Positions 45,400-52,102 of a stretch of DNA of 64,000 bases are shown here, in pieces; the first letter of the stretch is position 1, and every line of letters begins with the position of its first letter. Location: assembly GCF_947492555.1 (NCBI RefSeq), contig NZ_CANLNE010000002.1, positions 301,501 through 365,500 on the forward strand, written 5' to 3'. Origin of the DNA: an uncultured Roseobacter sp. (lineage in GTDB: Bacteria > Pseudomonadota > Alphaproteobacteria > Rhodobacterales > Rhodobacteraceae). The position numbers were made by a program, and so were the translations under genes. The notes under the pieces are model-generated. The model made no database searches. It saw nothing but the letters and a program-made list of their open reading frames with translations, and had not been told where the DNA came from.

Positions 45400-45818
45400 A
45401 AAATCCGTTCCATGTCGCGATGATCAATGCCCGCGTCGTCATAGACAGGTCCGAAGGCGGCAAAGCCCAGTTTCTCGTAGAAGCCCAAAGCCTGTATCTG
45501 CGCGCCAAGAACGGCCCGCGCTATGCCCGGCTGCGCGCGGGCCACGTCAAGCACGGACTGGATCAGCTTTGCCCCCAGCCCGGTACCGCGTGCGGAATGC
45601 AGCACACAGACCCGACCGATTTTCGCGGTTTCGCCCTTTAGCAGAAGGCGCGCGGTACCCACCGGCTTTGTGCCGTCAACAGCCAACAAATGCAGCGCAC
45701 TGCCGTCCAGCCCATCGACTTCCTCGGCCTCCGACACACTTTGCTCTTCGATGAAAACCTGCCTGCGCAGTGCCAGACAGGTGTCGAGGTCATCCGTCTG
45801 CGCAATTCGCACCGTCAC
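45396..45818 (-). CDS. GNAT family N-acetyltransferase
   Basis: The 140-residue protein has the acetyl-CoA binding motif [26 protein letters not shown] (about 69-94) and [26 protein letters not shown] at the C-terminus, a common YjcF/ElaA-like ending. Its GTG start overlaps the dapE stop. The substrate is unknown; nothing ties it to lysine synthesis except the operon. Confidence 0.88.
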
Positions 45819-46960
45819 ACGAAATACTCCGTGAGAATGCGCGTGTAGATGTCCTTGAGCTGCCTGATGTGCGCAATCTCAACATGTTCATCCACTTGAT
45901 GCATGGATTGTCCCACCAAGCCGAATTCCACGACCGGGCAGTGATCCTTGACAAAGCGGGCATCCGACGTGCCGCCTGTTGTCGACAGAACCGGCGTCAC
46001 ACCAGTTTCGGCCTCCACCGCGCGTGCAACCAAATCGGAAAGTGCACCGGGCGGCGTCAGGAAGCTTTCGCCCGAAATCTTGATTGTGACTTCTGTTTCA
46101 ACGCCGAATTCAGTCTCTATGCGGGCGATTTCCTCTTCGATCCATTGCGTCAGGGACGCACCGCTATGGCGATCGTTGAAACGGATGTTGACCGCGGCGG
46201 TACATTCTGCCGGGATCACATTCGTAGCAGGGTTGCCGGTGTCCACGGTCACAACGGCCAGCGTTGAGGGGTCAAAATGATCGGTGCCCTTGTCCAACTC
46301 GTGGCTTGCCAGACGGTCCATCAGGCGCACCATGGCTGGTAGTGGATTGTTGGCACGATGCGGATAGGCAGAATGGCCCTGCGTGCCGATCACTCTGATC
46401 CAGGCGGTCATCGATCCACGGCGGCCGATCTTGATCATGTCGCCCATTTTATCGGGGCAGGTCGGCTCTCCGACCAGGCAGACATCCATGCGTTCATTCG
46501 CGGCCTCCATATGCGCCAAGAGCGCAGTGGTGCCATCGACGGCATCGCCTTCTTCGTCTCCGGTAATTGCCAGAATGATCGCGCCATCCGGTGGCGTGGT
46601 CTGAACGAAATCAATCGCGGCGGTGGCGAAGGCGGCGACACCCGACTTCATATCCGTCGTACCCCGACCGTAAAGAACGCCGTCTTTGATCTCCGCCCCA
46701 AAGGGAGGCATCGTCCAGGCGGCGGCGTCCCCCACAGGCACAACATCCGTATGGCCGTTGAACCCGAACGTCTTGTTGTGGCCCTTGGGTCCCCAACGCG
46801 CAAAGAGGTTGCGGATGCCCCCCCGATCCGCCCAGGTGCACGCGAATCCGGCACCGCTCAATAGATCATGCAGCACATCCAGGGCACCGGCATCCTCTGG
46901 CGTCACAGACGCGCAGCGCACCAGATCCGCAGTGAGTGCAACGGGGTCCTGACCTGCCAT
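45815..46960 (-). CDS. dapE: succinyl-diaminopimelate desuccinylase
   Basis: DapE removes succinate from N-succinyl-L,L-diaminopimelate in lysine and peptidoglycan synthesis. The 381-residue protein (MAGQDPVAL start at 46960, AAGGA 7 bases upstream) has the metal-ligand motifs [13 protein letters not shown] and [29 protein letters not shown] with the catalytic Glu, and the dimerisation domain with [21 protein letters not shown]. DapD, the preceding pathway branch enzyme, is encoded 5 kb away. Confidence 0.95.
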
Positions 46961-47070
46961 GCGCTTTTCCTTATCCCTGACATGATGTGTAACCCAAGGT
47001 TTGTGGCCAAAAGGCAGCAATGCCAAGGGGGTCGGAACAAGAAATACTTAACAAATGCCCGCCATACGTG

Positions 47071-47226: not shown

Positions 47227-48810
47227 ATGGTTGCAGCATCCGAACTGCCCATTCGCACGGTCCGCGAAGGCACCGACGCTACCGACATGGCGGAAGCAAT
47301 CTTTGGGTCTGGCGTGCGCGTCGAACGGGCCTCCTACACGGGCGACGTCGACAGCGCGGGCATCTACACAAACGGCAATTCCGTATCCCCCGGTGTCGTA
47401 CCCGGTGACAGTGGCGTGATCCTGTCGACTGGCAATGCGGAAAGCTTCACCAATTCCAACGGGTCGTCGAACCAGAGCAACAGCACCTCGACCAATACCT
47501 CAGGGCCAAATAACAATCCCCAGTTCAATGCCGCAGCAGGCGCGCGCACCTTTGATGCGGCTTATCTGGACGTGGATTTTGTGCCTGATCACGATCAGAT
47601 GACAATCCAGTTCATTTTTTCGTCCGAAGAGTATCCCGAATTCCAGAACTCGATCTATCAGGATTTCGTGGGCGTCTGGGTCAATGGCACACAGATCGAC
47701 ATGGACGTCGGGAATGGCGACGTAGATCCAGGAAACGTCAATACAACCAATAATATCAACATGTTCGTTGATAACTCCGATGATGATTACAATACGGAAA
47801 TGGACGGGTTCACCATCACGCTGACCCTGACCATGAATGTTGTGCCTGACGAGGTGAATTCGATCCGCATTGGCATCGCGGACGTGTCTGATAACCGCTA
47901 CGATTCCAATCTGCTGATCGCCGGGGATTCCGTTCAGACAGATCTTGTTGCCATTTCGGATACCGTTGAGGTTCTCACGGACGGTATCAAAACCATCGAC
48001 GTGCTGAGCAACGACATCAATGAAGGCCCGGGCACGCTCACCATCACACATATCAACGGGCAACCCGTTGTTGCCGGCGACACGATCACCCTGCCAACCG
48101 GGCAGCAGGTCGTGTTACAATCCGATGGCAAGCTGAGCGTGGTAGGGGATGGGGACCCGGAAAACTTCAATTTCACCTACACGGTCACCAACAGCAGTAT
48201 TTCAGACGTTGGCTATGTCAACGCGACATCAGTGCCCTGCTTTGTCGCTGGTACGATGATCCAGACCACAAGTGGCAATGTGATGGTCGAACGGTTGCGT
48301 CCTGGCGATATGGTCATGACGCAGGATGACGGGCCGCAACCCCTGCGCTGGATCGGGACACGGCAGGTCGACGCCGTTGGGAAATTCGCCCCCATTCACA
48401 TTCGCCCAAACACATTTGGTGAGCACGGACATCTTTTGGTCTCGCCACTGCACCGCGTCCTGATCCGGGACACTGTCGCGGAGTTACTCTTCGGCGAACC
48501 CGAAGTATTGGTCTGTGCCCGAGATCTGGTCAACGACCGGTCGGTGCGGACCCGCGAAGGCGGTCGGGTAACATATGTGCATTTGATGTTTGACCGTCAC
48601 CAGGTGATCTTTTCCGAAGGCCTCCCGACCGAGAGCTTTCTGCCCGGACCGCAGACCACGGATATTTTCGAAGAAGAAATCGTTGCCGAAATATGTGCGA
48701 TTTTCCCTGAAATAGACCCTGATACGGGGATCGGATACAGCCCGGCCGCGCGGCGAACGCTTAAAAGATACGAGGCCGCCTTGCTGCGCGCCTCCAGCGA
48801 GGCCGCATAA
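47227..48810 (+). CDS. choice-of-anchor-L and Hint domain protein
   Basis: The 527-residue protein appears to have an N-terminal choice-of-anchor-L-like domain (about 10-240), including IQFIFSSEEYPEFQNSIYQDFVGVWVNG. A cadherin/VCBS-like beta module follows (about 245-335, VEVLTDGIKTIDVLSNDINEGPGTL). A Hint domain of the Hint_2 type (about 337-500) starts with PCFVAGTMIQTTSG. The nucleophilic Cys is C338 and a conserved His is H409 in SPLHRVL. GAGG lies 8 bases before the ATG. No classical signal peptide is seen, so export, if any, would be unconventional or type I. Its role is unknown. Confidence 0.82.
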   Translation: MVAASELPIRTVREGTDATDMAEAIFGSGVRVERASYTGDVDSAGIYTNGNSVSPGVVPGDSGVILSTGNAESFTNSNGSSNQSNSTSTNTSGPNNNPQFNAAAGARTFDAAYLDVDFVPDHDQMTIQFIFSSEEYPEFQNSIYQDFVGVWVNGTQIDMDVGNGDVDPGNVNTTNNINMFVDNSDDDYNTEMDGFTITLTLTMNVVPDEVNSIRIGIADVSDNRYDSNLLIAGDSVQTDLVAISDTVEVLTDGIKTIDVLSNDINEGPGTLTITHINGQPVVAGDTITLPTGQQVVLQSDGKLSVVGDGDPENFNFTYTVTNSSISDVGYVNATSVPCFVAGTMIQTTSGNVMVERLRPGDMVMTQDDGPQPLRWIGTRQVDAVGKFAPIHIRPNTFGEHGHLLVSPLHRVLIRDTVAELLFGEPEVLVCARDLVNDRSVRTREGGRVTYVHLMFDRHQVIFSEGLPTESFLPGPQTTDIFEEEIVAEICAIFPEIDPDTGIGYSPAARRTLKRYEAALLRASSEAA

Positions 48811-49904
48811 TGGCGTGGCTGGCGGTTTGCGATCACAAGGAACGGCGGTTTTCCCTGCGGGGCCTTGGGGACGACCGCCATCCGGAACGACTGCATTCGG
48901 ATGATGCCAACACCCTTTTAACCCGAGGCAGCATCGTCTTTGAGACGCGGACGTCGGCAGATGGGCGTCCACAAGAGCTGTTAGGATTTTCCAGGGGATG
49001 GCCAAACCAGGGCAGCCTGTCGTTCCGCGCCATTCCGGGCGGCGGCATTTCCCTGGTACAGGTCCAAGGCGAAAGCATTGCGCATGCCGCTCTCCAAAAC
49101 AGCATGGTCGCGCGAACGGAAGTGTTGCGTATCACCTTTGCCTGGGACGCATCGCGGGAATGGGCTCAGCTCAGCGTTGAGCAACCCGACACCAATCAGA
49201 TCGTCTTTGTTCCAGTGCCCAACGCCAGTCCGATGCTGTTACAGGATTTGCGCAACATGCTGATGGGGCGCGGCAATCCCTGTTTTGCAAAGGAAATCGT
49301 GTTTGCCGCCCTTTCGGACGAAATTGAGCGGATTGGCCCGATGCCGAGCCTCTGCCCGAGCGCCATGGTGGCGACCCCGCAGGGCTACCGCGCTGCGGGC
49401 ACTTTGCGGCGCGGCGATACCGTCATAACCCAGTGCGGTGACGTGGTGCCGGTCTTGCACCGGGTTGACCGCACGGTACCGGCGCGTGGCAGTTTTGCGC
49501 CGGTACGTTTGCGGGCGCCTTACTTTGGACTGCTGGAAGATGTCGTCGTTGGTCCCCGGCAACAGCTGATCATCGACGGTACCGAAGTCGAATATCTCTT
49601 TGCACAGGAGGCGGTCCTTATCCCGGCGCGCCATCTGGTAAACGGCTTTGCCGCGCTGTCTGCTATCGCAGGGGCCACCCAGCGCTACACGCAATTGATT
49701 CTGCCGGATCACGACGCGCTTGTCGTAGCGGGTGCCGCTTTGGAAAGTCTCTACATAGGCCGGATTCGCCGTAACCCGGCGGAACTGGCAGCAACACTGC
49801 TGGCCGACATTCCAAGACATTCTCTGCCACAACACAGGCGACCCGCGTTCAAAGTGCTCAAGTGGTTCGAGGCCATTCACCTGGCACGCCAACGCGCGGC
49901 TTAA
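48810..49904 (+). CDS. degenerate Hint-domain protein
   Basis: The 364-residue protein has an unrecognised N-terminal half (about 1-170) and a C-terminal Hint-like half (about 178-345). The latter aligns with the preceding protein: TPQGYRAAGTLRRGDTV to TTSGNVMVERLRPGDMV, and YTQLILPDHDALVVAGAALESLYIG to the matching segment ending SEGLPTESFLPG. The catalytic Cys is replaced by Ser180, and two conserved His positions by Gln (Q251 and the YTQ position). It should not self-process normally. Its start overlaps the preceding stop (TAATG). It could be a partner, inhibitor or degenerate copy. Confidence 0.75.
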   Translation: MAWLAVCDHKERRFSLRGLGDDRHPERLHSDDANTLLTRGSIVFETRTSADGRPQELLGFSRGWPNQGSLSFRAIPGGGISLVQVQGESIAHAALQNSMVARTEVLRITFAWDASREWAQLSVEQPDTNQIVFVPVPNASPMLLQDLRNMLMGRGNPCFAKEIVFAALSDEIERIGPMPSLCPSAMVATPQGYRAAGTLRRGDTVITQCGDVVPVLHRVDRTVPARGSFAPVRLRAPYFGLLEDVVVGPRQQLIIDGTEVEYLFAQEAVLIPARHLVNGFAALSAIAGATQRYTQLILPDHDALVVAGAALESLYIGRIRRNPAELAATLLADIPRHSLPQHRRPAFKVLKWFEAIHLARQRAA

Positions 49905-50254
49905 TCAGCGTCCACTTCCGGATGCGTGCCGTAAAAGGGCTCCATCTGTGCGATGATCACTGCATTCTCATCAAGCGCGCGCTGCATCAGCGCCCGCTCA
50001 TCGTCACCGATCTCATGTCCCTCAGCCTCGCGTTCCGTCAGCGTGCCGTAGCCGGTGACGTCGAGCGGTGCAGTGTCAGCCTGTTTCAGAACCGCCACAG
50101 TCTCGCGGACAGCCTCGGCCTCGTCGATCCCGCTGGCAAAAACGACCAGACCTGCGCCTGTGGCCTTCGCTGGCAAGCCATCGCCTTCCTTGCGTCCAAT
50201 CTGAACAACCAGGGTAAAGACTTGCTGCCGTGACGGTTTCTTTTTCTCTGCCAT
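49901..50254 (-). CDS. conserved hypothetical protein
   Basis: The 117-residue soluble protein is acidic at its C-terminus and has no signal or membrane segment. It starts with a Lys-rich patch (MAEKKKPSRQQVFTLVVQIGRKEGDGLP) followed by alternating alpha/beta structure with AGLVVFASGIDEAEAVRETVAVL. I do not recognise the family. It follows the 310-residue gene by 9 bp, suggesting one transcript, and its stop overlaps the converging Hint gene by 4 bp. Confidence 0.7.
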   Translation of the reverse strand: MAEKKKPSRQQVFTLVVQIGRKEGDGLPAKATGAGLVVFASGIDEAEAVRETVAVLKQADTAPLDVTGYGTLTEREAEGHEIGDDERALMQRALDENAVIIAQMEPFYGTHPEVDAD

Positions 50255-50263
50255 GCACGTGTG

Positions 50264-51196
50264 TTAGGCCTTGGCGAAAGGTACCACAACGGCTTTTTCC
50301 ACCAATTGGTCCGGCGCCCAACCGGTATAGGGCGACCAGTCGATCGCCATCTCGTGCAGATGGCGCACCCCCGCGAGGATGGCCGTACGCATCTCGGACC
50401 GCATCCGAAGATATCGATCCGCCTGTTCCTCCCAGCGGAATGCCATGCGGCCTTTGGCGTCCCGGCTCACCAGCGCATCAAGCAAAACCAGTGCCGTGCA
50501 ATGCGCATAGGCAGCGTGTTCCGGATCGAGCGAGATCAATTCCACCACTTCACCCGGAAACCAGCCGCCGTATTCCGAGAGAACGCAGCTACCCTTGAGA
50601 CAGTTTTCCAGGGCGGTTCGGTGGACGGTACGGGTATCCACCGGTGCTGCATCGCAGACGAGATCGCGCAGGCCGGCTGGCATTGAGCGCGCAATGACCT
50701 TCAATACCCGTATCAGGTCGGCGCCATCATAGGTTTGCAGATCGCGGCCCTCAGGCGCCCGATCAAGATTGACGCGGCGCGTCGTATGAGCCCAGCGATA
50801 TCCATTCATCACCGCGGCCCGCACCGGTGATGAGCCTTTGCGGTAGTGATCCTGAAACGCGTCCCAATTCCAAAAGAGATCGTCGGCCCCGGAACCCCCC
50901 TGCAACCGGTCAGCCAGTAGCAGCGCGGTGGCGGTCAGAAAGGCATCGAGGCCTTTGTCAGGCAAGGCGGCCACAAGCAGCAGATCAGCATGAATTGACT
51001 CAACGTCCCGCGAAGACAGCACGCATTTCTGATCAAAGATGACACGGCGCAGCAATTGCTTTTGCGCCGGTTTCAGGCGGTCTGCCAGACCACTAAACCC
51101 GGTGGCGGCAGCAGATTGCAGGTCCGCGACAACCTGCAGGGTTTGGAACGATATGGGGACAGACGCATGACGCATGGATATGCGATAGCTCCACAT
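50264..51196 (-). CDS. unrecognised 310-residue protein
   Basis: The protein is soluble and mostly helical, with Leu-rich repeats of helix such as LLLVAALPDKGLDAFLTATALLLADRL and AYAHCTALVLLDALVSRDAKGRM. It carries a few Trp-rich stretches (DDLFWNWDAFQDHY, FRWEEQADRYLRMRSE). I recognise no domain. An ATG at 51175 is an alternative start, and neither has a strong ribosome site. It lies upstream of the 117-residue gene in a probable two-gene unit between dapD and the Hint pair. Confidence 0.7.
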   Translation of the reverse strand: MWSYRISMRHASVPISFQTLQVVADLQSAAATGFSGLADRLKPAQKQLLRRVIFDQKCVLSSRDVESIHADLLLVAALPDKGLDAFLTATALLLADRLQGGSGADDLFWNWDAFQDHYRKGSSPVRAAVMNGYRWAHTTRRVNLDRAPEGRDLQTYDGADLIRVLKVIARSMPAGLRDLVCDAAPVDTRTVHRTALENCLKGSCVLSEYGGWFPGEVVELISLDPEHAAYAHCTALVLLDALVSRDAKGRMAFRWEEQADRYLRMRSEMRTAILAGVRHLHEMAIDWSPYTGWAPDQLVEKAVVVPFAKA

Positions 51197-51274: not shown

Positions 51275-52102
51275 TTAATCACGCAGCAGTTCGTTGATCG
51301 AAGTTTTGGACCGCGTCTGCGCATCCACCTTCTTCACAATGACGGCGCAATAAAGGTTCACACCGTTCTTGGACGGCATCGAGCCTGCAACAACGACAGA
51401 GCCCGCAGGCACTTCACCGTAGGTGAATTCGCCGGTTTCACGGTCGACGATCTTGGTCGATTTGCCAATGAAGACGCCCATGCCCAGCACAGAGCCTTCG
51501 CGCACGATGCAGCCCTCGACCACCTCAGAGCGTGCGCCGATAAAGCAGTTGTCCTCGATGATCGTCGGACCCGCCTGCATTGGTTCCAGCACGCCGCCGA
51601 TGCCGACGCCGCCCGACAGGTGCACGTTCTTGCCGATCTGTGCACAGGAGCCGACCGTGGCCCAGGTATCAACCATCGTGCCCTCGTCCACGTAGGCTCC
51701 CAGATTCACAAAAGAGGGCATCAGCACCACACCGGGCGCGATGAAGGCAGACTTGCGCACCACGCAGTTCGGCACCGCACGAAAGCCCGCCGCCCGCCAT
51801 TGATTATCGCCCCAGCCCGCAAATTTGCTGTCGACCTTGTCCCACCAGCCGCCCTCTTGCGGGCCGCCTGCCTGCATTTCCATGTCCTTGATGCGGAAGC
51901 CCAGCAAAACCGCTTTCTTGGCCCATTGGTTCACGTGCCAATCGCCATTCGCCTGCTTTTCCGCCACCCGCAGCTTGCCCCCGTCGAGGGCTGCCAGCGT
52001 GTCTTCGATGGCCTCACGGGTTTCCCCGGTGGTTGCGGGCGTGATGGTGTCGCGCGCCTCCCATGCGGCTTCGATGGCGGTTTCAAGCTGTGCGTTGGAC
52101 AT
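51275..52102 (-). CDS. dapD: tetrahydrodipicolinate N-succinyltransferase
   Basis: DapD adds succinyl to tetrahydrodipicolinate in lysine and diaminopimelate synthesis. The 275-residue protein has an N-terminal helical part (about 1-90) and a left-handed beta-helix of hexapeptide repeats (about 105-245), with [57 protein letters not shown] precedes the ATG. DapE, which later removes the succinyl group, lies about 5 kb to the left. Confidence 0.96.

Follow-up and report, generated by a model that had tools for sequence, protein, structure and literature searches.

Within the window, i.e. the whole 64,000-nucleotide stretch of Rhodobacteraceae DNA analysed here, two forward-strand open reading frames, P1 (47227 to 48810, 527 aa) and P2 (48810 to 49904, 364 aa), overlap by a single base between the TAA of the former and the ATG of the latter. 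P1 combines a choice-of-anchor L domain (aa 20-235; NF038133, E 2.6e-45, 154.6 bits for a cut-off of 27), a weak Big_9-like stretch scoring 15.4 bits, below the Big_9 cut-off, a Hint_2 domain (48235 to 48648, forward strand, aa 337-474; PF13403, E 3.8e-50) and a C-terminal tail (aa 475-527). P2 is composed of a putative lectin/LamG-like jelly roll at its N-terminus (about aa 1-172), recognised through Foldseek matches to its predicted model, and of a pseudo-Hint domain (49347 to 49760, forward strand, aa 180-317; PF13403, E 4.2e-27) followed by its own tail. The two tails can be aligned and end alike (EA..L), and neither N-terminus displays an apparent signal peptide when read by eye. With PF13403 scores of 170.5 bits (P1) and 95.8 bits (P2), above the curated cut-off of 28.4, both proteins belong to the Hint_2 proteins of Rhodobacteraceae, of which 11 domains occur in the window's own genome, and a Hint_2 match at E <= 1 was found in all 79 P2 proteins of our alignment A2. 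P2 nevertheless differs from these proteins by the absence of the catalytic set and by a lectin-like N-terminus devoid of a convincing Pfam match.

The pair is bordered on its left by an M20 peptidase gene (45815 to 47026, reverse strand; Pfam M20), which we take to be dapE and which represents the usual left flank of the locus. A named collection gave 356 loci, of which the best 80 were analysed (Roseobacter, Sulfitobacter, Tateyamaria, Roseovarius and others, suggesting that the window belongs to the Roseobacter group). A dapE-type gene was present in 78 of these 80, including all 15 without P1, as well as in 52 of 53 further loci retrieved as P2-only, two of which actually hold P1 with a broken P2 (L230) or a partial P1 (L238). 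The gap between dapE and P2 was about 1.8 kb in paired loci and 47-616 bp in 65 of 70 P2-alone loci (some species being present in both collections), a shortening that agrees with the absence of P1. Before an intact P2, weak remnants of P1 were detected in L104 and L201 (one species), L235 and L298. To the right, a conserved 117-aa gene (49901 to 50254, reverse strand), frequent neighbour of P2, and the following gene (50264-51196, reverse strand), both without Pfam match, precede a gene (51275 to 52102, reverse strand) that is presumably dapD and frequently flanks the locus. Near the locus, L183, L213, L219, L223 and L228 possess a further P1-type gene that retains the six active-site residues described below; in L213, L223 and L228 this gene is located downstream of P2.

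Structure prediction returned a confident Hint fold for P2 (mean pLDDT 91.7) and a poorer model for P1 (mean pLDDT 74.9), whose Hint region matched inteins, 2lwy and 1at0. The P2 model retrieved laminin LG domains, legume lectins and CBM40 (E 2.6e-05 to 1e-3) with a low whole-query TM, as expected for a two-domain protein, together with unrelated large proteins containing jelly-roll parts. No Pfam LamG match at E <= 1 was found in any of the 79 P2 members.

Active sites of the two Hint domains are contrasted. P1 carries Cys338 (codon 48238-48240, forward strand), Ser406 and His409 (SPLH), His452 (YVH), and Asp456 and His458 (DRH), which the alignment pairs with Ser180, Gly248, Gln251, Gln295, Pro299 and His301 of P2, respectively. 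This alignment of 145 P1 and 180 P2 domains, in which some species appear twice because they come from two collections, confirmed the earlier note on this DNA, which had reported Cys338 and His409 as retained in the first protein, and a Ser at the Cys position with Gln at two His positions in the second. Beyond this, it shows that one His persists in P2 and that an Asp and the SPxH Ser have been lost as well. Cys1 combined with an S/T-x-x-H motif is thus found in the P1 of the window and not in its P2, and from these residues P1 is inferred to be processing-competent. The residue just before Cys338, Pro337 (48235-48237), is a Pro in 139 of the 145 P1 domains. A Pro preceding the Cys disfavours the N-S acyl shift and is unusual for a Hint domain meant to cleave, and this conserved residue may slow or block the cleavage of P1. 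P1 also bears a second Cys in its tail (aa 490), common to 91 of 145 P1.

These differences recur among the relatives. Of the 145 P1 domains, 139 conserved Cys1 and 141 the block-B His, and the His residues of the YVH and DRH motifs were found in 142 and 143, respectively. Position 1 of the 180 P2 domains was occupied by Thr (63), Gly (48), Ser (46), Ala (13), Cys (5) or, for the rest, other letters, and the Ser180 of the window is itself not conserved. The block-B place of P2 was mostly Gln (150 of 180, with His in 17), as was the YVH place (Gln in 138, His in 31), and the DRH place remained His in 148. In alignment A2, Gln251 was one of 34 columns invariant over the 79 P2 proteins, along with Pro340 and His342 of the tail; this invariance, and the prevalence of Gln in the larger set, argue that the change of the P2 site results neither from chance nor from local decay. 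Among 106 distinct adjacent pairs, all six residues (CSHHDH) were present in 105 P1, the exception being an SSHHDH protein of L137 (4392-5954), with Ser for Cys and an ordinary P2 adjoining. None of the 106 paired P2 displayed the Cys, Ser/Thr and His set, although position 1 was Cys in five, of which two (L285 and L279) also had the block-B His, but not the Ser/Thr. The conserved association of an intact with a degenerate Hint domain that the earlier note had envisaged therefore exists. In the P2 of L231, L238, L242 and L251, every His is kept and Gly replaces Cys, suggesting that the nucleophile may have been lost first. Separately, the P2 of L285, L279 and L268, whose position 1 is Cys and of which two in three have the block-B His, form a sub-clade inside the pseudo-Hint group, reflecting either a regain of this residue or an alignment effect.

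P2 is widely distributed, yet irregularly so, within the family. Searches of 394 Rhodobacteraceae genomes, in which the best 5 candidates per genome were scored for P2 and the best 3 for P1, revealed a P2 match at E <= 1e-20 in 176 genomes and a P1 match at E <= 1e-60 in 158. Within the window's genus, full-length P2 was encoded by 8 of 19 genomes, its own included, and the nearest named P2 among the best 80 of 356 loci was 98% identical and belonged to an uncultured Roseobacter sp. On a wider scale, 385 genomes drawn from the class yielded full-length P2 in only 4 cases, all members of the window's own family, and one genome of another family gave a match to P2 restricted to its Hint domain. 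P1 stood directly upstream of 89 of the 150 P2 places listed, and 87 of the 111 listed P1 places with E < 1e-170 were directly followed by P2. In the named collection, P1 lay beside P2 in 65 of 80 loci and was full-length in 62 of these. For the 51 of these 80 loci that were found by a strict spacing rule, P2 started -31 to +10 bases from the P1 stop in 50.

With P1 counted as present at E < 1e-165 and P2 as present when a place was listed (149 genomes, another 27 with P2 matches of about 5e-29 to 1e-20 being counted as negative), 91 of the 394 genomes had both genes, 24 P1 only, 58 P2 only and 221 neither, i.e. an odds ratio of 14.4 (Fisher P 1.8e-27, kinship ignored). Among the 58 P2-only genomes, 11 had a weaker P1-type match (7e-91 to 4e-156) and 47 had none at E <= 1e-60. 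Conversely, the 22 loci fetched from the 24 P1-only genomes contained a diverged P2-like frame in 9 cases and none in 13; in these 13, P1 kept all six residues 12 times and had Glu for Asp once. On a tree of 110 P2 from which four unclear rows were left out, P1 adjacency underwent at least 22 changes (24 with these rows), and on a tree of 81 P1 that contains all 13 loci without P2, P2 adjacency underwent at least 10. Active-site states, in comparison, changed no more than 3 to 5 times along the P2 tree. Each gene is thus often kept without the other, and the two appear to be frequent neighbours and not parts of an obligate two-part system. The two-component system proposed in the earlier note consequently holds for its conserved intact and degenerate partners and not for their pairing: with homologous pairs collected, the pattern was conserved, and neither the Ser itself nor a constant adjacency was, so that, at these thresholds, an obligate system is rejected and P2 is a facultative neighbour of P1.

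Comparisons with known Hint systems provided clues to the chemistry accessible to P1. According to PMC9163320, Hedgehog autoprocessing relies on C258, T326 and H329, and loss of the block-B His inactivates it. Equivalents of C258 and of the TxxH motif are retained in P1, whose model matches the Hedgehog Hog domain 1at0 in fold (TMt 0.55). By this rule P1 possesses the residues of the first step, from which we infer cleavage. It differs from Hog by a Pro instead of a Gly before the Cys, by another tail and by the lack of any known sterol; in P2, the site itself is missing. The P1 model also matches the fold of a bacterial intein-like (BIL) domain of C. thermocellum (2lwy, TMt 0.69), a type of domain described in PMC5874633 as bacterial and located in variable protein regions. 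However, unlike in type A BIL domains and splicing inteins, a C-terminal Asn is lacking in P1: near the Hint C-terminus (alignment columns 228 to 251), Asn occurred in at most 20 of 145 P1 at any column, so splicing or C-cleavage is not expected.

Our preferred, tentative reading is that P1 and P2 are Hint proteins of separate lineages, of which P1 would be self-cleaving and P2 a non-cleaving scaffold or targeting module. P1 would most likely cut itself before Cys338 through a thioester, after which release or transfer would separate its choice-of-anchor-L part from the Hint domain and tail. The pseudo-Hint of P2 would persist as a folded module unable to start this chemistry, leaving the lectin part attached to Hint and tail, and would probably serve secretion or docking through the tail that aligns with that of P1. 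P2 could act outside the cell or at its surface, where P1 and the other Hint_2 proteins would also operate, and could frequently be expressed with P1 without depending on it. Export of both proteins and the non-cleaving role of the P2 Hint are suggested by the case of a secreted RTX-type protein of Ruegeria pomeroyi without predicted signal peptide, for which PMC2953401 reports no peptides from the predicted intein region, a pattern that fits removal of the Hint on export, and by one Hint_2 protein of the window's genome (L032) with RTX-type repeats when read by eye.

Two alternatives concern the nature of P2. That it is a decaying pseudogene of P1 would agree with its direct adjacency to P1 and with a few broken P2 frames (L181 and L139), but is highly improbable. 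Indeed, dN/dS of P2 between the window and L101 (the nearest relative), L102, L103 and L105, the only four comparisons with finite values, reached 0.070, 0.077, 0.114 and 0.175. The corresponding dS was ~0.14 for L101 and 1.8 to 2.6, near saturation, for the three others, and it was saturated for L112. Relative to L102, both halves of P2 gave similar ratios (0.080 and 0.072). P2 is therefore under purifying selection and not decaying, and these low ratios, with the 34 invariant columns, refute both the pseudogene reading and the random decay of the second gene that the earlier note had named as its refutation. Occurrence of full-length P2 in the genus likewise opposes a pseudogene, as does descent. 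In the Hint tree, the 74 P2 rows are set apart by a branch whose support does not exceed 78, and one clade (support 96) gathers 21 of the 23 P1-labelled rows; the two remaining rows correspond to a divergent Hint fragment (L200) and to a second P1-type gene (L219). BLAST found no similarity between the N-terminal parts of P1 and P2, which together with these separate groups makes a recent tandem duplication of P1 unlikely. P2 is a selected and presumably non-cleaving Hint protein. It could alternatively remain catalytic through class 2 or class 3 intein-like chemistry or a Ser/Thr nucleophile, since PMC7664689 describes splicing of both intein classes without Cys1, since the class 3 MchDnaB intein is the best-ranked intein match of the P2 model (6riy_B, TMt 0.67, 3.4 A), and since Ser or Thr occupies position 1 in 109 of 180 P2. 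We regard this route as improbable. Although P2 lacks Cys1 as class 3 inteins (WCT motif) do, no conserved Cys able to serve as block-F nucleophile exists, with at most 28 of 180 Hint domains and 24 of 79 whole proteins sharing a Cys column, and on these counts the class 3 mechanism is rejected; moreover, 61 of 180 P2 have Gly or Ala at position 1, and the block-B His needed for Hedgehog processing (PMC9163320) is gone in 163 of 180.

Other alternatives concern the link between the two proteins. P2 might bind the Hint domain of P1 as the inactive half of an active/pseudoenzyme pair and activate, delay or accept its self-processing in trans, which we consider possible while rather unlikely. Pairs of an enzyme and a pseudoenzyme are a known general kind, and P1 and P2 resemble them in that a conserved, catalytically dead relative adjoins an intact one, co-oriented and in frequent direct succession. 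Moreover, P1 and P2 distances were correlated over 61 pairs with dapE (r 0.79), and still after removal of the dapE distance (0.53), a value reached in 0 of 1000 label permutations, P1 and P2 themselves retaining partial correlations with dapE of 0.42 and 0.34. With the odds ratio, this suggests a tie closer than independence, which counts against our preferred reading; linkage and shared descent could nonetheless yield such a correlation, and the two-by-two table ignores phylogeny. Unlike in such pairs, each protein is often kept alone: P1 is missing from 58 of the 149 genomes with a listed P2, intact P2 many times occurs without P1 alongside, and P1 without a P2-like neighbour conserves its residues. 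A partner other than P1 is possible, as all 43 of the 58 P2-only genomes searched for Hint_2 possess 5-21 domains (that of P2 included), versus 15 of 20 genomes with neither gene under a stricter E-value. A broader and more doubtful version makes P2 a family-wide Hint pseudoenzyme acting in trans, whose dead Hint might associate with those of P1 and other Hint_2 proteins and set when, where or onto what these release their cargo, its lectin-like domain perhaps giving the place. At the opposite end, P1 and P2 might share nothing except a Hint-collecting locus beside dapE and have unrelated functions, a similarly doubtful option, consistent with the fact that either gene was repeatedly lost or gained alone and with the second P1-type genes near the locus, but opposed by the tight spacing, the co-occurrence and the co-divergence.

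Hint domains have been studied as self-processing machines. In the P2 lineage the nucleophile, and mostly also the block-B His, was lost, and the fold was nevertheless kept under strong selection across a bacterial family. P2 proteins thus offer natural material to explore functions of Hint domains other than cutting, and a potential action of dead Hints on live ones; if the in-trans reading were true, Hint self-processing would be regulated by a dead Hint. No such intact and dead Hint pair appeared in the titles and abstract openings of the papers listed from the open-licence literature searched. PMC12487129 reports Hint domains as enriched in Rhodobacteraceae responding strongly in marine bloom experiments. 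In the window's own genome, besides P2, 4 of the 11 Hint_2 domains seem by eye to lack Cys1 (Ser in L037; Ala/Gly in L039, L041 and L042), suggesting that dead or altered Hints are common there. A separate Hint clade (L037, L024, L014, L030, L031, L028 and L029; SH-aLRT 100) carries Ser at Cys1 (SF.RG/SFTRST) and a block-B His in 6 of its 7 rows, and perhaps represents a Ser-nucleophile Hint.
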